Shown here piece by piece: positions 25,129 through 62,176 of a DNA stretch of 64,000 bases (positions within the stretch are counted from its first letter, which is position 1; the number at the start of each line of letters is the position of its first letter). A model generated the notes under the pieces. The model searched no databases and was not told where the DNA came from. It saw nothing but the letters and a program-made list of their open reading frames with translations. Both the position numbers and the translations under genes were made by a program. The stretch comes from Victivallales bacterium (GTDB lineage Bacteria; Verrucomicrobiota; Lentisphaeria; Oligosphaerales; Oligosphaeraceae), in NCBI GenBank assembly GCA_017554445.1, contig JAFZIJ010000179.1:1-64000 (forward strand). Direction: 5' to 3'.

Positions 25129-25153
25129 TCCGACGGCGGGACGCCGTCGTTAC
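25129..25153 (-). repeat. GTCCC-loop palindrome at a stop codon
   Basis: Read on the minus strand: GTAACGACGGCGTCCC then GCCGTCGG. The TAA is the stop codon of the gene above it. The GACGGC/GCCGTC arms flank a GTCCC loop, as at 3309 and 47525. Confidence 0.85.
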
Positions 25154-27540
25154 TGAATTTCCAGCAGCAGCACGTCTTCTGGATCAAGCGTGATATTCAA
25201 TGCGTTGTTTTCCGCCGTGTAGGTCTTGCCGGTGACGCGATCGATGGCGGATTTGCATGGGATTTCGATGGTTACGGAAGACGTAATCGGTTTGTCCGTC
25301 GCGTTGAAAATGGTGAAGTAGCGGTCGCCGAACTGTTCAAGCCAGAGGTTGGTGTCGGCGGCATGGGCCATCGTTTCGGGACGCCAGCCGGCTTCGCCGA
25401 CGAGTTTGCAGAGCGGGACATATTTCTTGAAGAGGTCGCGATCGCGGTTGTAGAGGGCGGGATTCTTGAAGTAATGCTTCGTGGAGGCGTCCGCGCTGAA
25501 GAAGCTCGGGTAGAAGCCGTAGAACATCGTGCGTTTCATGTAACGTTCGACCATGTCGTGGGTGAAATACTCGAAATTCGTGTTCTGGAGGAAGCAATAC
25601 GGCTTGCCGCCGCAGAGGGCGCGGCGTGAAAGCAGGTCGGTATCCGCTGGTGGCCGCCATTTCCGACCGTAGTTCCAGTTGTTCTCCGTACCAAGATAGT
25701 CGAGCAGGGGGGCGAGATACCAGATGTTATGCGGCGTGGAGTTGGCCATCATCAGCCTGCCCATGCCATGCATGTCGCGTTCGATGGCGCGGACATATTC
25801 ATAGGAGATAAGGCCGCGGAAGACGCAGGGCTTCAACGTGCGCGAATCGTAGGTCAGCGGCGTCTGCGCGGCGGCGAAATGCTCGCGGTTGAAGTCCATG
25901 ATATCCGTGACATAGCCTTCGCTGGAATCGATGTATTCACCGTCCAGAACGAATTTCGCCTCTGGCCCGTAGAGGCGTTTCTTGATGTCGTCGTTCCATT
26001 TGACGTTGAAGTCCGTGAATTCGCCTTTGATGCCGGGCATGGAGTTCATGCTCCAGACGGCGCCGTTGCACCATGGCTCATTGCGGATGCGGGCGACAGG
26101 CTTGCCGTATTTGTCGTGATAAATGCTACTTGCGAATGCTTTCGCTTCGAGTGGCTTGCCGACTTCCGCAAGACGTGCGGCTTCCGCAGTGGCGTTTTCG
26201 AACGTCTTGTCCATTTCCTTCGGCATGTGCATCCACCATGTCATCGGCTCCGTGTAGCGGAACGTCAGAATGTCGTGGTCATCGTCCCATTTTGTTTCCG
26301 TCGTGCCTTCTTTCACGGCGAAACCGAAATCTTCAAAGCCTTCGACTTCGCTGATGTTGGCGAACGCCATCCAGAGGCCCTGTTTTTTAATGCGGACTTT
26401 AAATGCATCAGGATAAACGGAATAGAGCTTTGCATACGCGCTGCGAAGCCCCTTCTTGTTGTTGAAGTTGAATTGGAACACCTTGACTTTTGCCGTATTT
26501 TTTTCCGGCGTGAGGGCGATGTCAAAGGCGACGAACAGTTCATCCGTTTCGGCGTTGAAGACGGCACGGCCATGGGCAGGCGTGTCTAGATCCATGCCGA
26601 TAGCATGGCCTGTAATACCGTCGCCAACGGCGGCGATGGGTTGGGTGCCGTTATGGCCCATGCCGCAGCCTGTGTTGCTGGCGAACATGTATTCGCCGGA
26701 AGTCGATGGTTTCGGCTGGCGGGCAAAGGATAGCCACTGCCAGGTACCTGCCGGGAGTCTAAAGACATACGCCAGATGCAGAATCCGATCTTCTTTCAAA
26801 TTGGGAACGGTAAGTTCGGCGGTTTTGAATCGGGCAAAGTTGTCGTAGGATGTTTCCAGCTTGAAATCAATTCCCAAGACATTGCTAGTGGCAAAGGCAT
26901 TGCCGCCTTCGTAAACTGTTACAAAAGGTGTGTTCTGCTTGACATCGCGGATAATCCAACCATCCATATTTAAATAAGGTTTTTGGTTGATGACAGCTGT
27001 GCCGTCAAAACTGGCGCCGTTGGCATTGAAAGGCGCCTGGTAGAATTTCAGATTGCGGAACCACACCTTTCCCGTGTGATTGCGGAAGAGCAACCAGCAA
27101 TGGATGGATTCGATGGGCTTGGCCGGCATGAAGATGACTTCCTTTTCCTCCCAGTCATGCGTCCCTTGCGTGAAGGCAGATTTGACGCCCCATTCGTTCG
27201 TACCGTCCGCATAGCTGATGTCCAGATAAAGGGAGTAATTGGATTCATCCCCTCTCGAAGCGTTTTCCGCCTTGCTTTCGGCAGTGACGCGGATGGCCAG
27301 AGGGCGCTTCTGGTTGAGGACGATGATCTTGCCGAGGCCGCGGCGGAGCTTGGCATCATTGCCGTTGTCACAGACAAAGCCTTCATTGGTCGCGACATAG
27401 CCATCCTCCCACGCGCGCCATTCGATGTTCTCAATTGGCACAGGTTTGAGGTCGTCCTGTGAGTTGAGCACCTTTTTGACAACGACCGCATGGAGTGATG
27501 GCAGCATGAGCAAGGCAATGATCGGTAGAATGTGTTTCAT
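25150..27540 (-). CDS. Large secreted hydrolase-like protein of unknown family
   Basis: A 796-residue protein with a signal peptide (MKHILPIIALLMLPSLHA). The first ~400 residues are beta-rich with sandwich-like blocks (YSLYLDISYADGTNEWG, GKVWFRNLKFYQAPF). The second half looks like an alpha/beta barrel (FVLDGEYIDSSEGYVTDIMDFNREHF, DTNLWLEQFGDRYFTIFNATDKPI) and a short C-terminal sandwich ends it. Acidic pairs DGEYIDSSEG would suit a glycosidase active site. I do not recognise a named family. The start at 27540 follows AAGGAG; an in-frame upstream codon at 27588 lies within the preceding gene. It forms an operon with the glycyl radical enzyme 44 bases upstream. Confidence 0.6.
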   Translation of the reverse strand: MKHILPIIALLMLPSLHAVVVKKVLNSQDDLKPVPIENIEWRAWEDGYVATNEGFVCDNGNDAKLRRGLGKIIVLNQKRPLAIRVTAESKAENASRGDESNYSLYLDISYADGTNEWGVKSAFTQGTHDWEEKEVIFMPAKPIESIHCWLLFRNHTGKVWFRNLKFYQAPFNANGASFDGTAVINQKPYLNMDGWIIRDVKQNTPFVTVYEGGNAFATSNVLGIDFKLETSYDNFARFKTAELTVPNLKEDRILHLAYVFRLPAGTWQWLSFARQPKPSTSGEYMFASNTGCGMGHNGTQPIAAVGDGITGHAIGMDLDTPAHGRAVFNAETDELFVAFDIALTPEKNTAKVKVFQFNFNNKKGLRSAYAKLYSVYPDAFKVRIKKQGLWMAFANISEVEGFEDFGFAVKEGTTETKWDDDHDILTFRYTEPMTWWMHMPKEMDKTFENATAEAARLAEVGKPLEAKAFASSIYHDKYGKPVARIRNEPWCNGAVWSMNSMPGIKGEFTDFNVKWNDDIKKRLYGPEAKFVLDGEYIDSSEGYVTDIMDFNREHFAAAQTPLTYDSRTLKPCVFRGLISYEYVRAIERDMHGMGRLMMANSTPHNIWYLAPLLDYLGTENNWNYGRKWRPPADTDLLSRRALCGGKPYCFLQNTNFEYFTHDMVERYMKRTMFYGFYPSFFSADASTKHYFKNPALYNRDRDLFKKYVPLCKLVGEAGWRPETMAHAADTNLWLEQFGDRYFTIFNATDKPITSSVTIEIPCKSAIDRVTGKTYTAENNALNITLDPEDVLLLEIQ

Positions 27541-27584: not shown

Positions 27585-29453
27585 TCAACAGCAGTGTTCG
27601 GTTCGCTTCAGGATTTCCGCTTGGAGCGTGCGGTCGAGCCGTGTGTAGTATTCGCTGAAGCCGCCGATTCTCACCATGAGATTCGGATAGTCTTCAGGCT
27701 TTTCATACGCCTTTTGGAGCGTCTCCTGATCGGCAATGGTCACTTGGATCTGCATGCCGCCGCGTTTGAAGAAGGTGGTAATCAACGACTTGACGATAGC
27801 GCGTTTTTCTGGCGTCTTCAACATGTCAACATTCAGCCGCAGATTGAAGATCAACGTACCGAGGCCGCATTTCGGCGGGATGGACAGAACGGAATTGATG
27901 AGCGATGTCGGCCCTTTCATGTCGGTGCCCTGATAGGCTCCGGACGAATCGGCCAACGGTGCGCCGTCTGTCGGTCGTCCAGCCGTGGCTGGAACGTATC
28001 GGCCGAAGGCCGCGTAGGTCGTCAGCAGGATGACGCTCGGAAGGCACCATCCATATGTGCGTTGTGATGTAATTTCTTTGAAGACAAAGTCATACAGCTC
28101 ATGGGCGATGGCGTTGACTTCTGGATTGTCGTTGCCGAACATCCCCTTGATGCCGCGATCCGCCGCGATGGCGTTGATGGTGTCCGTCGCTCCCGCCAAA
28201 TTGATGACGGAGCCGTTGTAACGTGCGCCGCAGTCGCGGAAATCGCGGCCGTTGTCGATGCAGTCATCGACGAACAATGTGCGGATGATGGCGGGATTGT
28301 ATTTCGCCGCGAACTGATGGTTGATGACGACCGCCTCGCAGGCCGTTTTGACGTGGTGTTTCAGCGCCTTCAGGAAGGATTCGTAACTATCTGAATTCCT
28401 GTATATTTCCAGCAGATTCAGACCTGCGTCGATGGAGCCGACCAGCGACCGTCCTTCGAACATCGTCTCCGTGCAGCCGCCCATCGCGTAGTGCTCCAAA
28501 TCGTCTGGTCTGACATCCGTGAGCTGTGGCAGCATTTCCTTGTAAATAGCGTCGTTGTAAAGAGATGGTGTGGGATTATGGGCCTCCCATGCGTCAAAAA
28601 TGGTCTGCCATGTCTCGTCGCTGGTGTTTTCGTCGATGCGGATGCCTGTATTCGGCCGGCGGATGCCGTTCTGCGCCTTGATGCAAAGCATCGTGAAATC
28701 ATGATGTTCGGGCTTGTCCGCCAGATACATATGCCAGGCGGTGTTGATGTCGGTCAGCGTCCAGAATTCCCGCAGGGCATCGTAGGCTTCTGGTTCGCCG
28801 TGGTAGTATTTGCCGAGGACGTTGTCGAGACGGCCAAGGGAATCGCAACCATCGAGATACCAAATGGCTACGATGGAAACCAACGCTTCCTGGAACGTCT
28901 TGGCGGGATGGTTGGGAACACGCCCCAACAGGCCTGGACAGCGATTGAAAAAGGCGATCAACGCATCCATGACCTGCTTCAATGGACGGTGGAAGTCGTT
29001 GTCTGGCTTGGCGTCCAATCTTTTTTTGTAACCTAGCAGGCCTTCTTCCAAAACACGTTCATAGTTTGGAACGCAATGAATCCAGCCGTTGCCGCCGATG
29101 GCGTAACGTGGCGGCACAAGACGCATGACGGTGAAGAAGATTTCATTGACGGCGCGTTCCAGGAGCGTTCTGTCAAACGGTGTCATGTCCTGTACAGCTT
29201 TGTTCAATTCTGCACGATTGACGGAAAAACCGCAATTGTAGTCGTAATTGACGATTTTATAACGGTTTAATCGCCATAGTGCCTGATACCCCTGCAAACC
29301 GCAGTAGCCTTTGAATTCAGGCGTCGGGGCATGTTCGAAATGCCGCACGATAGCCGTCGCGACACGCGCGTTATACGGGGCGTTTTCGTCTTCGAAAAAG
29401 CCTGCGGCGTAGTATTCGCCCAAATTGTGGAACAGTTCTGCTGTGCGGTTCAT
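27585..29453 (-). CDS. Short glycyl radical enzyme (PFL/glycerol-dehydratase superfamily)
   Basis: A 622-residue protein with both hallmarks of glycyl radical enzymes. The active-site cysteine loop is MGGCTE (Cys327). The C-terminal radical loop is VRIGGFSEYYTRL (Gly598), followed by the usual LQAEILKRTEH tail. GRPTDGAPLADSSG and GTDMKGPTSLINS match the conserved pre-radical region. At 622 residues it is well below the usual 750-850, mostly through a short N-terminal part. No radical-SAM activase is next to it, so activation must come from elsewhere. It is flanked in one operon by a thioesterase and a secreted hydrolase. The substrate is unknown. Confidence 0.85.
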   Translation of the reverse strand: MNRTAELFHNLGEYYAAGFFEDENAPYNARVATAIVRHFEHAPTPEFKGYCGLQGYQALWRLNRYKIVNYDYNCGFSVNRAELNKAVQDMTPFDRTLLERAVNEIFFTVMRLVPPRYAIGGNGWIHCVPNYERVLEEGLLGYKKRLDAKPDNDFHRPLKQVMDALIAFFNRCPGLLGRVPNHPAKTFQEALVSIVAIWYLDGCDSLGRLDNVLGKYYHGEPEAYDALREFWTLTDINTAWHMYLADKPEHHDFTMLCIKAQNGIRRPNTGIRIDENTSDETWQTIFDAWEAHNPTPSLYNDAIYKEMLPQLTDVRPDDLEHYAMGGCTETMFEGRSLVGSIDAGLNLLEIYRNSDSYESFLKALKHHVKTACEAVVINHQFAAKYNPAIIRTLFVDDCIDNGRDFRDCGARYNGSVINLAGATDTINAIAADRGIKGMFGNDNPEVNAIAHELYDFVFKEITSQRTYGWCLPSVILLTTYAAFGRYVPATAGRPTDGAPLADSSGAYQGTDMKGPTSLINSVLSIPPKCGLGTLIFNLRLNVDMLKTPEKRAIVKSLITTFFKRGGMQIQVTIADQETLQKAYEKPEDYPNLMVRIGGFSEYYTRLDRTLQAEILKRTEHCC

Positions 29454-29462
29454 GGGTGGAAT

Positions 29463-29834
29463 TTATGACTGTTGTTTCAAAGCAGGAAGCAACGCCTTGT
29501 TGCCGTTCCCGTCTGTGTTGCAGAAAGTTACGTTTGTGTGGAAAACATCGCGGCGGATGCCCGTCGGCACGCCAAGAGCGGTGACATCGACGGAATAGGT
29601 GACGGATGTGTGACCCATTTTCAGGCGGTTGATGTCGAATGTGATGACGTCGCCGTTCGAGACGCTTTCCGTGAAGGAGACGGAATCCATGGCGCGGGTG
29701 ACGAATCGCGCATCTGGAAATTCCTCCAATGCAGTGATATAGGCATATTCGTCAACCCACAGCAGCATATATCCGCCGAACAGATGGCCGTTGTGGTTCA
29801 GATGTTCCGGGCGTATCAGTGTCTTGAATTGCAT
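29463..29834 (-). CDS. Acyl-CoA thioesterase, hotdog fold (YciA/BACH type)
   Basis: A 123-residue hotdog-fold enzyme. The N-terminal LIRPEHLNHNGHLFGGYMLLWVDEYAY holds the Asn-His and the active-site acidic residue of the acyl-CoA hydrolase family, and VSFTESVSNGDVITF follows. It hydrolyses acyl-CoA thioesters in the cytosol. The start at 29834 follows GAGGAGG at ideal spacing; a longer version from 29858 lacks this. It ends 10 bases before the glycyl radical enzyme gene and probably starts that operon. Confidence 0.85.
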   Translation of the reverse strand: MQFKTLIRPEHLNHNGHLFGGYMLLWVDEYAYITALEEFPDARFVTRAMDSVSFTESVSNGDVITFDINRLKMGHTSVTYSVDVTALGVPTGIRRDVFHTNVTFCNTDGNGNKALLPALKQQS

Positions 29835-29995
29835 CGTGCCTCCTCGGGGGATTTTCAAACTATACCAATATTATGTTATAATTAAGGTTAGCGTCATTTT
29901 CCGAATATGCAAATGGCGCGATGTATTTCAGGAGATTTCCATGTGTATCTTTTGAATTGTTCCCTTTTTGCAATATATTAATAACGCATTGAATG

Positions 29996-30085
29996 AATGC
30001 CGGGGTGCTTCGGACGGATGTCCGCGGCTGAGATCAAACCCGTGAACCTGATCTGAGTAATGTCAGCGTAGGGAGACATGCGCAT
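29996..30085 (+). promoter_or_regulatory. TPP riboswitch (THI element) upstream of thiC
   Basis: The conserved core is clear: CGGGGTGC, GGCTGAGATCAAACCCGTGA, ACCTGATCTGAGTAATGTCA and GCGTAGGGA. It lies ~60 bases before thiC and should bind thiamine pyrophosphate to shut thiC expression. The stretch between it and the start could hide the ribosome-binding site AGGAG. Confidence 0.95.
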
Positions 30086-30145
30086 GCCAAGTGAACGATA
30101 TTCCGACATCCTGGCTCCCGTCTTTTTCGTAGGAGCATGTGGAAA

Positions 30146-49151: not shown

Positions 49152-49177
49152 AAGACTCGCTCTTGAAGAGAAAACAA

Positions 49178-50833
49178 ATGAACACAACAATTACATTGAG
49201 ACAGTATTTTGGGAAAGGCAAGAAGTTCGTCATTCCTAAATATCAGAGAGGGTATATCTGGGGCAAGAAAAGGTTTGGTGATGGGTTGGATTCTGTTTCC
49301 TATATTTTGCAGAAGACTATCGTTCCTGGATTTCAGAAAGACTGCGATATTTTTCTGCAGGGCATAACGGTGCATGAAGCCAATGATGAAATCATCATTA
49401 TTGATGGTCAGCAACGAACCACTTTTTTCTATTTGTTATTCAAATGGCTGGGATATAATGAGCCGTTGGCACTTCATTATGACATTCGAATAGAATCTAA
49501 TGACTTTTTGAAAAGCCCAGGCTTTCTTTCAGATTGTAACGAAAATCTTTACGAAGAATATCAGGACATCTATTTCTTCAAAAAGACCATCCGCCTAATA
49601 TCGCGGATTCTTGCGGACATGGACAAGGAGAAATTGCTTTCCTATCTTTTGGATAAAGTCAAGTTTTTATATGTTAATCTACCCAGACCTGAACAGGCTA
49701 CCAAGGTATTTTCAATGATGAACGGCAACCGTGCCGTCATGCGTCCTGAAGAGGTTATCAAAGCTGAATTACTTCGCCTGGCATCTCGTTCCAATGAGCA
49801 ATACATTACCAGAGATTTCAAAGAGCAGATGGCTCAGGAATGGGATTGCAATCTTTTGAGAAGCCGTTATGCGCACGAATGGGATAAATGGCTTCAATGG
49901 TGGAATAAGGAGGAGGTTAGGTTCATTTTCCGCTGCAAAAATGTCATGGGATACCTCATTTCAACGTTTCAGGATACCAACAACGAGCTCACCTTTGAAA
50001 ACTTCAAGGAGGCATTCTTGAAAACCGCAACTGCAGTAGAAGCCAAAAATGTCTTCGATGGATTAAGGCGTCTTCAAAAGCGTTTCGAAGATGCTTTTAA
50101 TTCTCCTGAAGTTTATAACCGTATTGGAGCCATACTGCGGATTGGCAAGCCAGAGGATTTTATCAAGTGGTTTTTTCGAGGTGAAAAGAAACCCATCGAA
50201 GCGCTTGACTGGTATTATCGATGCGCTTTCCTCAAGCTTACACATAAGGAGATTATGGAGAAAAATGATGAAGCATTTGATAGCAAGTTCACAAACGTAA
50301 AGGAAAAACTCGAAAACGACTTTGCCTATTTCGATGAAAATGCGAAGGAAGAGGTATTCCGACTTCTTCTGCGTCTTAATATTGATGAGGATACCAAGCA
50401 GGGTAGGAAATTCAATTTCCATGTATGGGATAATCGTTCTCTTGAACATATCTACCCTAAATCCATGGTCTTCCATTATGATGAGGAACAGAAAGGATGG
50501 TTTGATGGCAATGAAAATCCATTGTCAGCTGGAGAGACCGAGCTTGATGGCTATATTTCCCGAGACGATTGCAAATGCACAGATTGCTCAACAACTGAAC
50601 ACAGCCTTGGGAATCTTGTGTTGCTTTACGGTAGAAACAATTCTGAATTTGGTAAAAAAACCTTTGAAGAGAAAAAGAAGATGTTTTTCCAACCTTCTGC
50701 AAAAGAAATCTTTGAAAGCAGACATCTCCTTCATACCATCTTCAAATTTGCCCAAAGTCAGTGGGGCGGCAATGAAATTGCAATGAATAAGTACAACACA
50801 CTCAAAGAGTTCGAGGCGTATTATGGCAAATAA
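49178..50833 (+). CDS. DUF262/DUF1524 protein (GmrSD-like, HNH-type), first of a pair
   Basis: 551 residues. The N-terminal DUF262 part has IPKYQRGYIWG (19-29) and IDGQQRTT (75-82), the ParB-like nucleotide-using motif. Late in the protein (about 420) RSLEHIYPKS gives the HNH-type nuclease motif of DUF1524. This is the composition of GmrSD/BrxU-type restriction enzymes, which attack modified phage DNA using NTPs. It overlaps the next gene by 11 bases. The ATG at 49178 is preferred to a TTG at 49163. Confidence 0.88.
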   Translation: MNTTITLRQYFGKGKKFVIPKYQRGYIWGKKRFGDGLDSVSYILQKTIVPGFQKDCDIFLQGITVHEANDEIIIIDGQQRTTFFYLLFKWLGYNEPLALHYDIRIESNDFLKSPGFLSDCNENLYEEYQDIYFFKKTIRLISRILADMDKEKLLSYLLDKVKFLYVNLPRPEQATKVFSMMNGNRAVMRPEEVIKAELLRLASRSNEQYITRDFKEQMAQEWDCNLLRSRYAHEWDKWLQWWNKEEVRFIFRCKNVMGYLISTFQDTNNELTFENFKEAFLKTATAVEAKNVFDGLRRLQKRFEDAFNSPEVYNRIGAILRIGKPEDFIKWFFRGEKKPIEALDWYYRCAFLKLTHKEIMEKNDEAFDSKFTNVKEKLENDFAYFDENAKEEVFRLLLRLNIDEDTKQGRKFNFHVWDNRSLEHIYPKSMVFHYDEEQKGWFDGNENPLSAGETELDGYISRDDCKCTDCSTTEHSLGNLVLLYGRNNSEFGKKTFEEKKKMFFQPSAKEIFESRHLLHTIFKFAQSQWGGNEIAMNKYNTLKEFEAYYGK

Positions 50834-52724
50834 AAATAATTTTATCACTGGGGAAAACTATACACTTGCAGAATTGTTTTCTGAAAACAGGTTTGTCATT
50901 ATTCCAGACCTTCAGCGGGATTATTGCTGGGGGAACGATGGACACGAACTAGTCCATGGATTTGTCAGTTACCTTATGTATCAATATAAGAATCAACCAT
51001 TGGAGGAATTGAACCTTGGATTGTTGTACGGCTATGAAATTCCTGCCAACCATATCCAGCTATGTGATGGTCAACAGCGTATTACGACTCTATTCCTGCT
51101 TTTAGGCATGCTTAACCGCCACATTGGTGTTTTCCAACGGCATCTTATTTCAGACTTTGAATACAAATATGATGACAAGGAACCTTATCTTAGTTATGCG
51201 ATTCGGGAATCTACATTGTATTTTCTAAGAGATCTGGTAAGTAATTTTTTTATTGGTGGTTCCCTGAAAGGAGTCGATTCTATTCGAAAAGCAGACTGGT
51301 ATTTTTCTGACTATGAACTTGACCCTAGTATTCAGAGCATGATTGCAGCGGTGAAAACCATTGAAGATTGTTTGTCAAAATCCGATGAAAAGTTCATCAG
51401 AGGATTCGGCAATTATCTTCTCAATAACCTCACATTCCAGTACTATGATATGGAGACTCGTGCGAACGGGGAGGAAACATTTGTTGTTATTAACACGACT
51501 GGCGAACCTCTTACGGCTTCACAGAATCTAAAACCTCTTGTTATGGAGGCAGAAATTAACAATAATACAGACAGGCTCGCTGAATGCTGGGAGGAAATGG
51601 AACAATGGTTCTGGAAGAAACGCAGAAACGGAAATGATACTGCTGATGCAGGGTTGGAAGAGTTCCTACGCTGGGTGGTTATTATTGAAAAGAAAGAGGA
51701 CAAAAAGCTTACAGAGGAGTTGCTCAAGGAAAATCAGCAATACAGAAAGAAAATCAGATTTCCGTACGAATCAATTTCATTCCAGACCATTTCAGATTAT
51801 TGGCAAGCCCTTCAGCTATTGGTTACTTGGAATGAAATCAACCTAGATTTTTTATCGCCGCAAAGGGGTTCTATATCGCCGATTGATTGTTTTAAGCTTC
51901 TTCCTGAGTTGTATTATGTAAAAAATCATTACTCTGTTTTATTGGAAATGTATGATAGTAGTCAAGGAACTCCGATTGAATATCAACGAATTAGGGAATT
52001 CTTCAAGAACCTGGCACGAACTTCCAAAGTGAAAAATCGTTCAGGTGAATTAGTGTGCGAAGCCATAAAGATGATCGATTTCATTCAGAATGGAGAAATT
52101 CTCTCCTTGCTTGACTGCGATGAAGGGCAACTGTCAAAATCACTTTGGACAAATGAGGAAAAAATGAAACTTTCTATCATAAGTGACCATATAGAGAAAC
52201 GTTATAAAATTGAGCAGGCATTTTGGAATGCTCAAGAACATCCAATTTGGGCAGGGGAAATACTACCGTTGATTGAATGGGCAACGCAGGATGGTCGCTT
52301 TGACTACACTCAATTCGAAAATTATCGCTCGACATTTAATCAAACATTTGAAGGTGACTGTGAGGACAACATAGACAATGTACGGCGTGCATTATTGACC
52401 TTGGAGTTGTACGGCTATCCGCGTGTTTTCCGCGGATATACCAATATCTCCTTTGGTTGGGAATGGGAAGACTGGAATGTTTTGATTCGGGATAACCAAG
52501 ATAAGTTTAGAATGTTCATTGCCCGGCTGGCAAATGGTGAATCTCTTGAGCAGATGATTGATGCATATGATGATGAATCAGAATGGAAACGTTTTATCAT
52601 AGAGCCTGATCTTCTCGCCTATTGCAGACATAAGAATGTCCAACGCTCTGGAAAGGATCTTCTCCTTCTTCGTGGCGAACGCACAAGTGGTGAATACAAA
52701 ACAATCACTGATTTCTTTGCATAG
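50823..52724 (+). CDS. DUF262 protein, second of a pair
   Basis: 633 residues with VIIPDLQRDYCWG (about 26-38) and LCDGQQRITT (about 80), the DUF262 ParB-like motifs. No HNH motif is seen in its C-terminal half, unlike its neighbour. Its ATG overlaps the end of the first DUF262 gene. Together they resemble split two-component DUF262 defence systems. Base use is more AT-rich than in the left part of the window, suggesting transfer. Confidence 0.85.
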   Translation: MANKNNFITGENYTLAELFSENRFVIIPDLQRDYCWGNDGHELVHGFVSYLMYQYKNQPLEELNLGLLYGYEIPANHIQLCDGQQRITTLFLLLGMLNRHIGVFQRHLISDFEYKYDDKEPYLSYAIRESTLYFLRDLVSNFFIGGSLKGVDSIRKADWYFSDYELDPSIQSMIAAVKTIEDCLSKSDEKFIRGFGNYLLNNLTFQYYDMETRANGEETFVVINTTGEPLTASQNLKPLVMEAEINNNTDRLAECWEEMEQWFWKKRRNGNDTADAGLEEFLRWVVIIEKKEDKKLTEELLKENQQYRKKIRFPYESISFQTISDYWQALQLLVTWNEINLDFLSPQRGSISPIDCFKLLPELYYVKNHYSVLLEMYDSSQGTPIEYQRIREFFKNLARTSKVKNRSGELVCEAIKMIDFIQNGEILSLLDCDEGQLSKSLWTNEEKMKLSIISDHIEKRYKIEQAFWNAQEHPIWAGEILPLIEWATQDGRFDYTQFENYRSTFNQTFEGDCEDNIDNVRRALLTLELYGYPRVFRGYTNISFGWEWEDWNVLIRDNQDKFRMFIARLANGESLEQMIDAYDDESEWKRFIIEPDLLAYCRHKNVQRSGKDLLLLRGERTSGEYKTITDFFA

Positions 52725-52822
52725 TCCAAACTACGACCAATGCTTATGCCGAACAATGTGCAGCAAATACGAATCAGTTTCTTGAGGGGAGTAGCACGTT
52801 TCTCATTAAACGGGAAATATAG

Positions 52823-52900
52823 AAATATAACGGCAACATCACCAAAGCCGGCGAAGCTCTTGGAACATCAAGAAATACGGTGAGGAAGTATTTGGAGTAA
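52823..52900 (+). repeat. Second copy of the activator 3' end
   Basis: Matches 49074-49151 in 73 of 78 positions including the stop codon. No frame leads into it, so it is a remnant, not a gene. The rest of 52725-53027 is AT-rich without a recognisable gene. Confidence 0.92.
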
Positions 52901-53027
52901 TGATAATGAATGACATTTATAAATCATGTTCATTCCCAGTCAAATACATAAACTAAAATGGATATTTGACTGGGATATTTGACAAATATATAATCTGATA
53001 AGATTGTATATTGTTAATAACATAGTT

Positions 53028-54596
53028 TTAAATTTGGGTTGGAAGATTCAATGCTTGACGAATATTCAATAACTGGTCAAGTATCTTTTTACCGTCCTCC
53101 ATGCTAGAAAACACGAAATGATAAGGATAACGGCCAGCGTTCCAGTAATCACAAATATAATCCAATGATATCTTGTTCTTTAGTAATTCATCACGTATGG
53201 CATTTTGATTCTCGTATTTTCTGTGACACCAGAAATCAATTACACGTGATTCTCCGTCACGGAATTGAAGGCCGAAATCCCCTAGCCAATCGTATCGAAC
53301 ACCGAGATACAAGCCTGTACTTGAAATTAACCATGACTCCTGTTGTAAATTCTGTGTCAGGTTCCATTGTGAACGCATGACTGTCAGGGCTGCAAACTCA
53401 TCATCGTCATACAAGCATTCCGTTGTTTTCCGCCAATTACCTATAACCAACGTTACCCAATTCTGTAAATCATCTCTGGTGTCTGGTATATCGTCAACGG
53501 ATAACAATCCATTGACAAATATTGCTATATCATCAGGTTTGAAAATTTCATAATAATATACAGTTGTTTCATTTATATTTTCTGGAATGGGAATGGATAG
53601 TTTATTGCAAAGTTGCTCTGATATCATTTGATATTCAGAGACAATACCGCCTTCAAAAGAGAACTGGATACAATAGGGAGACGTCCGCAAGTAGCGACCA
53701 ACATTGATAGTGAGGCCTGTCTTCTCGTCATGGAACAACTGATGCCAACAGTCATTTTCGTCAGCTTCATTATATGTTATATGGAAGATGTCACATAGTT
53801 GTCGGCAGAAGAAAGCTCTTTTTATCGAGTCGCTTGCATTATTGTGCCATATATCCAGCCTGTCTCTTATAGCCTTGCACCATTCGATTTCGATCTTTCT
53901 TTTGTCTTCGACTGTGAATTGATGTTCCAGTAAATAATTGCGTACAAGTTGCGGTCCGTCTGGAATCTCCCGTTGTGACAACCGTCCTTCAAGATAATGG
54001 ATGTATTGCGTCGCACCTGAAATGAGATAGGGCTGAGATACGTTAAAGGGAGCTTTTTCCTTCAGCCATGGCAGAATATGGTCTTTGTAGTTCATTTCCC
54101 GAAAACGCCCTGTGGAATTATCGGAAAAACCAAGCAAGCGTCTGGCTTCATCGGTAAGACTACCATCACTGGGTGAACCACCAGTCATGGTAAGATAAAC
54201 GACATAGATGGGTTCGCTATTCTGATAACTACGCATTTCAGCCTGGACATAGCGTGCAATTTGTGTTGACTGGTTCATGGCCCCATTGATTTTATTCTCA
54301 ATGATGATGGAATAATTAGAACTGTGGATGCATAAGTCTATGTTGTTTTCAGACAGGCATGAAAGCTCTACATTGCAATCCGTAGGAAATGACTGTTTAA
54401 ATATGGGAGCCAGACAATGTTTCAAGAAACTGTCAAGAAGAGGTTTATTCTGAAGAAGGCGATAAAGAATTCGTGTATGAGCATTTTCATTAGCCCATAA
54501 CTCATCAAGAATATTGAAATTCTCCAGCTCCTTTTCTTTCGTATTATTGAGTATTTTGACAACATCATTCAAACATTGTGATAATGGAATATCCAT
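53028..54596 (-). CDS. PD-(D/E)XK nuclease-family protein
   Basis: 522 residues. FNILDELWANENAHTRILYRLL opens a PD-(D/E)XK-like domain. NNIDLCIHSSNYSIIIENKI carries the D-x(n)-ExK core (Asp, then IENK), and GAMNQSTQIARYVQ is the following Gln-containing helix. The remaining ~300 residues include a DUF4268-like C-terminal part. It is likely a DNA endonuclease or nuclease-like defence protein. The ATG at 54596 has AAAGGAT upstream; the frame extends further to 54641 but lacks a signal. It is convergent with the DUF262 pair. Confidence 0.75.
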   Translation of the reverse strand: MDIPLSQCLNDVVKILNNTKEKELENFNILDELWANENAHTRILYRLLQNKPLLDSFLKHCLAPIFKQSFPTDCNVELSCLSENNIDLCIHSSNYSIIIENKINGAMNQSTQIARYVQAEMRSYQNSEPIYVVYLTMTGGSPSDGSLTDEARRLLGFSDNSTGRFREMNYKDHILPWLKEKAPFNVSQPYLISGATQYIHYLEGRLSQREIPDGPQLVRNYLLEHQFTVEDKRKIEIEWCKAIRDRLDIWHNNASDSIKRAFFCRQLCDIFHITYNEADENDCWHQLFHDEKTGLTINVGRYLRTSPYCIQFSFEGGIVSEYQMISEQLCNKLSIPIPENINETTVYYYEIFKPDDIAIFVNGLLSVDDIPDTRDDLQNWVTLVIGNWRKTTECLYDDDEFAALTVMRSQWNLTQNLQQESWLISSTGLYLGVRYDWLGDFGLQFRDGESRVIDFWCHRKYENQNAIRDELLKNKISLDYICDYWNAGRYPYHFVFSSMEDGKKILDQLLNIRQALNLPTQI

Positions 54597-54671
54597 TGAT
54601 TTTATCCTTTCAATTGAAAAAAACTCTCCAACCAAGGCCAATAACCATGGTTTTCTAAAATTTCAATGAAC

Positions 54672-57332: not shown

Positions 57333-58448
57333 ATGTCAGAACAGGAAAACAATTATTCACTGCTATCTATATTGGAATTTCCGCGTGTTCATCAATCCAT
57401 GTTTTTGCATTGCGGTCTGGAATTTGCATTTTGGGAATTGATGCATGGTTGGAATATGCTCATGGACTATGCATGCGATGGAATTTCATGGGATCATCCA
57501 GCTAAAATTGAAATCGATGAGAAGAACGGAAAATGTACCTTCCATGTTTTTGGGGGATTTTCTTCTGAAAAAGTTTACCAGTTGTTGAACAAAATCTCCC
57601 CTCTTGTTGACAAGAAGAAGTGGTCAGTGGAAGATCTTTCCGTTATTTGTACAGAAAAGCAAGGTCATGTCGGTTGTTCTCTTGATAGAGTCAGCGATGA
57701 AATTCCATGGTGTCAAAATTTAGCCATCATGTTGATCATCGCTTATTCTCAAAATGTAAGACTATTTGCTATTTGTGATAAAACACAGATTGAAATGCTT
57801 GTTTGTGACAATGACGTTGCAAGCCTTTCATGTAAAAACGTCAAAGAAGAAAATCAATGGTATTTAGAGTTCACTCCCAATCCGAAATACATTTCTGAAA
57901 TGCCGTTGGGAAGTGCTTTCAAAGCGGAATGTTTAAGACGCGTCTGTGCTTATTCTCAGGCTTTGACGATTTGTGTCCAAGGGGGTGAAATGCACGAGTT
58001 CAATGGCACACAAGCTTGGAAGCATATAATTGCACCATATCCTTGTTGGAAAAAATCTGTCGGTATGAGATTATATGTTCCAGGACAATTTGATTTGGTC
58101 TATTCATTTCGTTCTGAGACTGAACGCAAATGCGAAGTATTTGCCGGAGGGCATAAATCTGGTGGCCAGCCAGAAAAGATATTCGAGACTGTCTTTGAGT
58201 TGTTTATCTCAGAACACTATGGGAAGGAAGCAGTTGCCCAAACAAAGAAACTAGGTTTTGTTGTGGTTCTTTCTCTTCTCAATCTGAATGATATTTGGCG
58301 TCCGACCATGGCATCTGAGGACTGTTATATTAATGAAGACTCGACGTTATACAAAGAAATCAATACACAAATCATGCGTTCATTTCAAGAATATGAACCT
58401 CTACACAAATTATTGGAAGATGAATATGGATTAACAGTCATAAAGTGA
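57333..58448 (+). CDS. Degenerate GyrB-ATPase-domain-like protein, paralogue A
   Basis: 371 residues. Compared with the GyrB/ParE 43-kDa region, VHQSMFLHC (about 19-27) corresponds to RKRPGMYIG, the next helix GWNMLMDYACDG to the ATP-binding VVDNAIDEALAG, IEIDEKNGKCTFHVFGG to the strand before DxGxGIP, WYLEFTPNPKYIS to GTTVxFxPDxxIF, and LGFVVVLSLL to GLxAVxSVK. The acidic catalytic Glu, the GxHGVG lid glycine motif and the QTK loop lysine are missing. So it may mimic or bind gyrase rather than burn ATP. It has a sigma-54 promoter and a paralogue at 61070. This homology is my reading by eye. Confidence 0.6.
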   Translation: MSEQENNYSLLSILEFPRVHQSMFLHCGLEFAFWELMHGWNMLMDYACDGISWDHPAKIEIDEKNGKCTFHVFGGFSSEKVYQLLNKISPLVDKKKWSVEDLSVICTEKQGHVGCSLDRVSDEIPWCQNLAIMLIIAYSQNVRLFAICDKTQIEMLVCDNDVASLSCKNVKEENQWYLEFTPNPKYISEMPLGSAFKAECLRRVCAYSQALTICVQGGEMHEFNGTQAWKHIIAPYPCWKKSVGMRLYVPGQFDLVYSFRSETERKCEVFAGGHKSGGQPEKIFETVFELFISEHYGKEAVAQTKKLGFVVVLSLLNLNDIWRPTMASEDCYINEDSTLYKEINTQIMRSFQEYEPLHKLLEDEYGLTVIK

Positions 58449-61021: not shown

Positions 61022-61069
61022 CTATTCAAGGCGTAGTCAATATCACTAATCAAAGGGAGAATGCAATCT

Positions 61070-62176
61070 ATGGAAGAAAATAACAAGACTCTGACAGTTA
61101 TGGATCACGCACGTTTGCGCCAGAAAATGTATTTGCATTGTGACCCCGAACATGCATTTTGGGAACTGTTCAACGGCTGGACAATGCTTATGGATTTTGT
61201 ATGCGCGGGGATTTCATGGGACCATTCAGCCAACATTAACATTGATGAGCAAGATGGAAAATGCCTTTTCCATGTTACGGGGGATATTTCCTCGAAAAAA
61301 GTCTTTGATTTGCTGGTTGAAATTTCCGCAAGGATGCATGACAAGGCATTGTCTGACAAATTGCCTGGCAGCTTGATTTACAACTGTGGTGGAATGTTCA
61401 CCGAGGAAATGTTGAAAGATTTGCACAGAAAATGGATGCCGTCATTTCTTCCAATCATGCTTGTCATAGCCTATTCCCAAGATATCAGATTATCCGCCAC
61501 ATACGGAAAGCAATCTATCGAAATGTTGCTTCAAGGAGATATGATAAGCAGTTTAGAATGCGGAAAATCAGAGGAGGCGGACCAGTGGCAGCTTGACTTC
61601 ACGCCAAATCCCCAATATATATCCGCGATAGATTTTGGGAAGCATTTCAAGAGGGAATGCTTCAGGCGCGTCTGCGCATATTCCGATGCCCTGACCATAC
61701 GCGTCCGAGGACATGAGATGCATGAGTGCAGTGGAACCTATGCATGGCTGCATCTTGTGGCTCCATATCCTTATTGGAAGCAATCCGCAAACATCAGAAC
61801 ACTTGTACATAAGCAATTCGACATTGCCTTCTCGTTTCGCCCTGGAACAGAACGCAGATACGAGATATTCTGCGCAGGACATCTTTCAGGTGGCCAGCCG
61901 CAACAGTTGCTTGAACATGCCTTCGAGAGCTACATTGCTGAATCTTATGGGGAAGCGGCTCTCCCAAAAATCAGGAGCCTTGGATTTGTCGCCGTGCTTT
62001 CTATCCTTGGATTTGACAGTATCCTTCGTCAATCCATGGGTTCCGATGACTGCCAGATTGACGAGGATTCGGAATTGCATGCGGAAATCAAGGCCACGCT
62101 AAGGCGCACTTTCCGAGATTTGAATTCTCTCCACGACCTGCTCAAAGAGAAATACGGACTTGTCCCCATAGAGTGA
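61070..62176 (+). CDS. Degenerate GyrB-ATPase-domain-like protein, paralogue B
   Basis: 368 residues, clearly paralogous to the protein at 57333 over its whole length: shared AFWEL, GW-MLMD, GISWDH, FTPNP-YIS, RRVCAYS-ALTI, APYP-WK and GHLSGGQP. The GyrB-like order (R(L/K)RQKMYLHC, GWTMLMDFVCAG, INIDEQDGKCLFHV, LPIMLVIAYSQDIRLSA, WQLDFTPNP, GFVAVLSI) is kept, while the Glu general base, lid glycines and transducer lysine are lost in both copies. The same loss in two conserved paralogues suggests a real non-ATPase function. The ATG at 61070 suits the GGGAG spacing better than 61061. It is followed after 23 bases by a second gene. Confidence 0.6.
   Translation: MEENNKTLTVMDHARLRQKMYLHCDPEHAFWELFNGWTMLMDFVCAGISWDHSANINIDEQDGKCLFHVTGDISSKKVFDLLVEISARMHDKALSDKLPGSLIYNCGGMFTEEMLKDLHRKWMPSFLPIMLVIAYSQDIRLSATYGKQSIEMLLQGDMISSLECGKSEEADQWQLDFTPNPQYISAIDFGKHFKRECFRRVCAYSDALTIRVRGHEMHECSGTYAWLHLVAPYPYWKQSANIRTLVHKQFDIAFSFRPGTERRYEIFCAGHLSGGQPQQLLEHAFESYIAESYGEAALPKIRSLGFVAVLSILGFDSILRQSMGSDDCQIDEDSELHAEIKATLRRTFRDLNSLHDLLKEKYGLVPIE

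Follow-up and report, generated by a model that had tools for sequence, protein, structure and literature searches.

A compact clade of glycyl radical enzymes with a GGC[T/S]E cysteine loop, apparently activated in trans

The stretch of DNA analysed here (the window; 64,000 nucleotides from a Victivallales bacterium) encodes a compact glycyl radical enzyme (GRE) that belongs to a real family. Judged from sequence, the enzyme belongs to a compact, eliminase-type clade that is uncharacterised as far as tested and carries the motifs GGC[T/S]E, DGxD, and RIGG[Y/F]. It probably removes water from sugar-like molecules and appears to be activated in trans by a distantly encoded activase. With about even confidence, we infer for the window GRE the chemistry (dehydration), the substrate (polyol- or sugar-derived vicinal diols), and the serving activase (one that acts in trans). 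The features of the locus are collected in Table 1.

Table 1. Positions of the GRE, its predicted active-site elements, and its two flanking genes in the window
Feature	Position	Strand	Remarks
Compact GRE of the GGC[T/S]E clade	27585..29453	minus	622 aa; Pfam, fold model, tree, selection
Cys loop GGCTE, residues 325-329	28467..28481	minus	Predicted Cys327 thiyl radical; Glu329 of the CXE motif; aligns to GCVE of glycerol dehydratase
Radical loop RIGGF, residues 595-599	27657..27671	minus	Gly598, predicted glycyl radical site
His126	29076..29078	minus	Aligns to the GVGH-motif His of glycerol dehydratase (position 164)
DGCD motif (Asp201, Asp204), shortened active-site loop	28842..28853	minus	Asp204 aligns with HypD Asp278
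4HBT hotdog thioesterase	29463..29834	minus	Upstream of the GRE with a 9 nt gap; 123 aa (ATG at 29834)
Protein of no named family	25150..27540	minus	796 aa from the ATG; signal-peptide-like start; 44 nt downstream of the GRE

The GRE reading frame is intact, with an ATG start and one terminal stop, and its product exceeds the Pfam cut-offs for the PFL-like domain (112.9 bits; cut-off 24.3) and the Gly_radical domain (76.4 bits; cut-off 22.2). The dN/dS ratio was 0.045 against the orthologue in G002 (97% identical) and 0.080 against that in G003 (91% identical), so the frame does not occur by chance; the gene is under strong purifying selection. An earlier note, made from the letters alone, had described a short GRE with Cys327 in a GGCTE loop, and the length of 622 residues, the domain scores, and the position of the cysteine all confirm this description. 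The note had also set the loop apart from the GCVE form; its reading of the loop stands, but the sole change is Val to Thr, and the Cys-x-Glu motif is intact.

Members of the family alignment are usually 650–730 residues long, and the solved GRE eliminases, among the PDB entries listed, have 776–1150 residues. The shortness of the window GRE has two causes: loops that are missing clade-wide, and an additional 32-residue stretch that is absent in 10 of 19 aligned members. These ten make up the subclade of the window GRE, the shortest of its family; glycerol dehydratase retains the stretch. Such losses could be expected of a decaying pseudo-enzyme that was retained by chance, a reading whose probability we regard as close to negligible given the low dN/dS ratios, the presence of all catalytic residues, the confident fold described below, and the sharing of the short form by more than half of the aligned members.

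An AlphaFold2 model, built with 52 family sequences, displayed the full GRE fold (pLDDT 94.5, pTM 0.93). The family scan took 80 of 565 relatives, and the structure alignment drew on 51 of these 80, with fragments and outliers left out. The top Foldseek match of the model was glycerol dehydratase 1r8w (E 1.7e-34). In the VIA comparison, approximately 585–599 residues were aligned with most GRE eliminases and with arylacetate decarboxylase at Z values of ~31–37, the top rows being near ties; the highest Z was 37.0 (rmsd 2.9, 587 aligned), and the comparison with 1r8w gave Z 33.4 (rmsd 2.9, 587 of 622 residues). Because the fold spans nearly the whole length of the protein in these alignments, it represents a complete GRE with trimmed loops and not a fragment.

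Glycerol dehydratase also ranked first in the profile search (382.8 bits). The profile alignment pairs Cys327, Glu329, His126, Gly598, and Arg617 of the window GRE with Cys433, Glu435, His164, Gly763, and Arg782 of glycerol dehydratase, where the latter numbering was counted on the printed chain and the correspondences rest on the alignment. All 52 aligned family sequences keep His126, Asp201, Asp204, Cys327, Thr328, Glu329, Ser340, Gly597, Gly598, and Arg617. A catalytic cysteine in the middle of a GRE-folded protein is therefore constant among them, as is the CXE motif of GRE eliminases, formed by Cys327, Thr328, and Glu329. One report describes this motif as conserved among GRE eliminases, with its Glu proposed as the base, and lists His160, Asp278, Asp339, and Glu436 as required in HypD (PMC7077986). 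At the C terminus, the GRE fingerprint is given as RVxG[FWY] in another (PMC11528403), and the window GRE matches it as RIGGF, with Ile replacing Val. The presence of Gly598 rules out a non-glycyl (Ala, Ser, or Thr) aminoacyl radical enzyme.

The surroundings of the predicted pocket are remodelled. Among the active-site residues His164, His281, Ser282, Asp447, and Arg782 of glycerol dehydratase, His281 and Ser282 are ligands; the loop that carries them is shorter in the window GRE and reads DGCD. Asp447, which binds substrate, aligns with Ile341, which is not an acid, though Asp342 adjoins it. The segment with Phe333 of glycerol dehydratase and Ser334 and Asp339 of HypD is deleted, and on the alignment the loss of the Phe333 segment would suggest a wider pocket.

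The CXE glutamate is present in GRE decarboxylases as well, so the motif is not proof of elimination. Another GRE reaction class that keeps the motif, such as decarboxylation, C–C cleavage, or ring-opening elimination, would be compatible with the strong remodelling of the substrate loops and with arylacetate decarboxylase 7e7l, which VIA placed in its top rows (Z 36.3, rmsd 3.3, 591 aligned). However, diol dehydratases come first in sequence profiles, His126 and Asp204 match dehydratase residues, and the operons of relatives encode an alcohol dehydrogenase, with sugar genes present in a single instance, which makes a different reaction class unlikely.

In a tree of 55 rows, all 22 GGC[TS]E rows formed a single clade (support 100/98), whereas the five characterised references grouped together outside it. 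GGCTE is therefore a clade signature and neither a single-gene oddity nor a corrupted GCVE. The references in this tree are five sequences, with CutC, IslA, HPAD, BSS, and PFL compared by profile score or structure only; the loci in the tree and in the counts were retrieved with motif patterns derived from family members, and the breadth of the clade is seen through those patterns. Among the matches listed, eight phylum labels, mostly from MAG names, are represented in the clade: Lentisphaerota, Planctomycetota, Bacillota, Spirochaetota, Omnitrophota, Poribacteria, Latescibacterota, and Armatimonadota. The sister of the clade (95/91) is another GRE from the same genome as the window (L074), with the Cys loop GCNQ and a DGTD motif.

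The profile scores point in the same direction. Among the 12 NCBIfam models listed for the window GRE, none reached its cut-off, the best being TIGR01774 with 146.3 of 678.2 bits, and the subgroup equivalogs (CutC, HypD, HPAD, IAD, HpsG, HpfG, PFL, and PRK09983) scored 51.6–124.8 bits against cut-offs of 994–1150. Likewise, four further clade members reached no NCBIfam cut-off. The window GRE is 14–24% identical to solved GREs in the listed rows. These distances, together with the separation in the tree, make it very improbable that the protein is a shortened member of a known subgroup (glycerol/propanediol dehydratase, HypD, CutC, or PflD/YbiW), although the glycerol and propanediol dehydratases do come top in both the profile search and Foldseek. 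Grouping with the glycerol/propanediol dehydratases 1r8w, 5i2a, and 9rco was rejected on their separate tree groups (100/98), and a pyruvate formate-lyase identity was rejected on the GGCTE loop, which has no adjacent Cys-Cys pair. The view of the earlier note that the enzyme falls into no characterised subgroup was thus borne out by the NCBIfam cut-offs and by the tree, in which it did not cluster tightly with any of the five references. A search of open-licence PMC articles found no paper on the GGC[T/S]E clade and none on tandem or orphan GREs.

Two genes flank the GRE on the same strand. The upstream product matches Pfam 4HBT (35.7 bits), and its PDB matches are acyl-CoA hydrolases. The downstream protein has a start that, judged by eye, resembles a signal peptide; it has no Pfam or NCBIfam match, a sequence search of the PDB gave a single match (E 0.029), and its fold predicted from two sequences was unusable (pLDDT 37.3), so that the label of hydrolase given to it earlier was not confirmed. 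Homologues of both proteins lie beside a GRE in 3 of the 76 listed loci, dereplicated by hand from known duplicates, and these are the window, G002, and G003 only. Neither neighbour is found at the GRE locus of G001 or G004, which are of the same genus and have 60%-identical GRE orthologues. Homologues of the secreted protein occur in 26 of 59 related genomes, and in G001 and G004 they are on contigs other than that of the GRE. The two are lineage-specific neighbours; as they are common only to the window and two near relatives, they tell little about GRE function. The functional tie proposed in the earlier note was not supported, and coupling to the two proteins as a family trait was rejected.

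The spacing of the thioesterase and GRE genes differs as well, being 9 nt in the window and ~107 nt in G002 and G003. Compared with these two genomes, ~90 nt were lost at 29453-29500 of the window, which alters the C terminus of the thioesterase and closes the gap. A hotdog acyl-CoA thioesterase directly upstream at such a distance could imply that both proteins act on an acyl-thioester by a variant of pyruvate formate-lyase chemistry. This is quite improbable: the GRE has a single Cys followed by x-Glu where PFL has a Cys-Cys pair, only close relatives show the linkage, and the short gap is not shared by G002 and G003. Divergent from the thioesterase and GRE genes is an ordinary TPP riboswitch (RF00059, 55.8 bits; 29991-30092, plus strand), ahead of thiC at 30137.

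The multi-GRE clusters of relatives are more telling on function than the two flanking genes. As the earlier note had remarked, the context of the window GRE does not match choline, glycerol, isethionate, or hydroxyproline clusters. Clustering of the neighbourhoods of 77 listed loci, in which the focal gene was possibly mis-set for the window, L052, and L090, and example families were verified by Pfam, recovered an activase at 15 loci, an IclR regulator at 13, an Fe-type alcohol dehydrogenase at 11, and an AraC-type regulator at nine. Of the 76 listed loci, 14 have another GRE no more than 3 kb away, which is of the TCVE type in ten of these 14. In clusters of relatives, the GGCTE-type GRE is accompanied by one to four further GREs, in most cases by a single activase, and by an IclR regulator and an Fe-type alcohol dehydrogenase. 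L069 and L138 share the order Fe-type alcohol dehydrogenase, IclR, GGCTE-GRE, TCVE-GRE, GCYE-GRE, and activase, and L059 has five GREs and one activase in one cluster. In L068, two GREs are preceded by genes for class II aldolase, PHP protein, DeoC (deoxyribose-phosphate aldolase; 152.5 bits for TIGR00126, cut-off 117.3), FGGY kinase, and IclR, and glycosidase or BNR-repeat neighbours are present at some other loci. The sugar context has its limits: DeoC and the kinase are found at this single locus, and the Fe-type alcohol dehydrogenase at the 11 loci counted above.

Taken with the active-site alignment, these neighbourhoods are consistent with the following mechanism. A radical-SAM activase encoded elsewhere would set the radical on Gly598, from which it would pass to Cys327. 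Cys327 would then abstract a hydrogen from a substrate carbon bearing a hydroxyl, Glu329 would deprotonate that neighbouring hydroxyl, and the adjacent hydroxyl would depart as water, aided by His126 and/or Asp204. The most likely substrate would be a vicinal diol derived from a polyol or a sugar, which would yield an aldehyde or a deoxysugar. In the case of the terminal 1,2-diol of a polyol, a 2-deoxy aldehyde would be formed; in relatives it might be reduced by the Fe-type alcohol dehydrogenase of the operon, and in L068 it might be cut by deoxyribose-phosphate aldolase. A product of this kind would fit the dehydrogenase and, in L068, the kinase and DeoC.

An activase is usually encoded near a GRE, a trait that is typical and not defining, and the window GRE does not show it: as the earlier note had it, there is no neighbouring activase, and none was found on the whole contig (C164). 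The search of the genome for a lone activase, which that note had advised, returned three genes over the TIGR02494 cut-off, on contigs C124, C98, and C171, compared with 15 GRE loci. These three contigs have no GRE, and each activase is at least 13 kb from the contig ends. A canonical PflA was rejected, as TIGR02493 had no match over its cut-off in the genome. A GRE-associated microcompartment was also rejected, because PF00936 was absent from the genome, with positive controls in E. coli and Synechococcus. The other 14 GRE loci (L072-L085) are on contigs C42, C231, C133, C91, C41, C218, C229, C217, C72, C37, C16, C46, C167, and C172; their Cys loops are varied, with GCVE, GCYE, GCWE, ACWE, TCVE, ACNR, GCNQ, GCNE, GCWD, and ACNW among them, the radical Gly is kept in all 14, and several form long branches in the tree.

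Distance between GRE and activase is common elsewhere in the family. Among the matches listed are 37 clade loci whose contigs extend 3 kb to either side; eight of these have an activase within that distance, whereas 29 lack one. L138 was counted with the latter, as the tandem GREs displace its activase. In Oligosphaera ethanolica DSM 24202, a single-contig genome, an activase gene is found within 3 kb of 4 of the 12 GREs, a count that includes one PflA-like gene under the TIGR02494 cut-off, and 8 of 12 have none so close. In this genome, 514 kb separate the clade member at 2,308,804 from the nearest TIGR02494 activase over cut-off, and there is no GRE near the activases at 2,824,935 and 4,406,607.

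The window genome is a 234-contig MAG of 90.5% completeness, and a fourth activase may therefore be missing from it. Such fragmentation could also mean that the cognate activase adjoins the gene in the real genome and was lost to an assembly gap. We consider this extremely improbable, since the GRE is ~28 kb inside a 71.6 kb contig, the three activases are well within contigs that have no GRE, and O. ethanolica and most of the listed family loci show a similar separation. An assembly artefact is thus refuted as the cause of the missing activase for the immediate neighbourhood, and an unassembled activase elsewhere is possible.

In a tree of 23 activases, all 10 GGCTE-operon activases included formed one group (97/97) with two lone genes, C124 and that of O. 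ethanolica at 2,825 kb, and the other two activases of the window genome were outside this group. We infer that the lone gene G000:C124:21369-22178 is the most likely activase of the window GRE. Its orthologue in G001 is ~2.4 kb from a canonical PFL-like gene, and for this reason the C124 activase may serve a canonical PFL-like enzyme. Tentatively, the clusters of relatives may also represent a multi-GRE sugar or polyol pathway with one shared activase, in which several GREs, the compact clade among them, would carry out successive or parallel dehydrations. In the lineage of the window the operon would be dispersed, and a free-standing activase would charge many scattered GREs in trans, a departure from the usual pattern of one enzyme with one neighbouring activase.

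Two further features of the window were noted. At 49163-54641, after a sigma-54 activator-type gene (47673), two adjoining genes with a GmrSD_N domain and a PDDEXK_4 nuclease-like gene possibly form a defence cluster. The genes at 57333-58445 and 61061-62173 encode paralogues of 371 aa each, which share 48% identity and have no Pfam match.

The clade is a coherent, unassigned group of radical enzymes from anaerobes of the gut, rumen, and sediment; it includes a compact subclade and has an altered active site. If its members are indeed polyol or sugar dehydratases, they would add a B12-free route of sugar deoxygenation in Lentisphaerota and ruminant Clostridia. The presence of 15 GRE loci and three lone activases in one genome makes activase specificity, and the question of whether one activase serves many GREs, testable.

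Comparing the window GRE with known systems, the best Foldseek matches are the B12-independent glycerol dehydratase of C. butyricum (1r8w) and the 1,2-propanediol dehydratases (5i2a and 9rco), with which it shares the barrel fold, the CXE loop, the His, the radical Gly, and the C-terminal Arg. However, it is 18–24% identical to them, has 622 residues compared with their 787–843, and differs in the short DGCD loop, the lack of the Phe333 segment, the Thr in place of Val, and its separate clade. Similarly, the CXE motif is common to the window GRE and the trans-4-hydroxy-L-proline dehydratase HypD (6vxc), and Asp204 aligns with the essential Asp278 of that enzyme, whereas Asp339 has no counterpart, the NCBIfam HypD score is 124.8 against a cut-off of 1100, and no proline-pathway genes were noticed in the GRE neighbourhoods read. 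PflD/YbiW (8id0 and 8id7), whose PDB titles name sugar-type (anhydrosugar-phosphate) ligands, has the same fold (Z 33.8 and 32.0); however, PflD groups with the other references outside the clade, and PRK09983 gives 105 of 1109 bits. Tandem threonyl radical enzymes, two beside one activase, are described in PMC11528403, where the arrangement is called atypical. In contrast to these, the GRE clade has Gly as its radical residue, the GREs that stand in tandem belong to distinct deep clades, and a single cluster (L059) contains up to five GREs.
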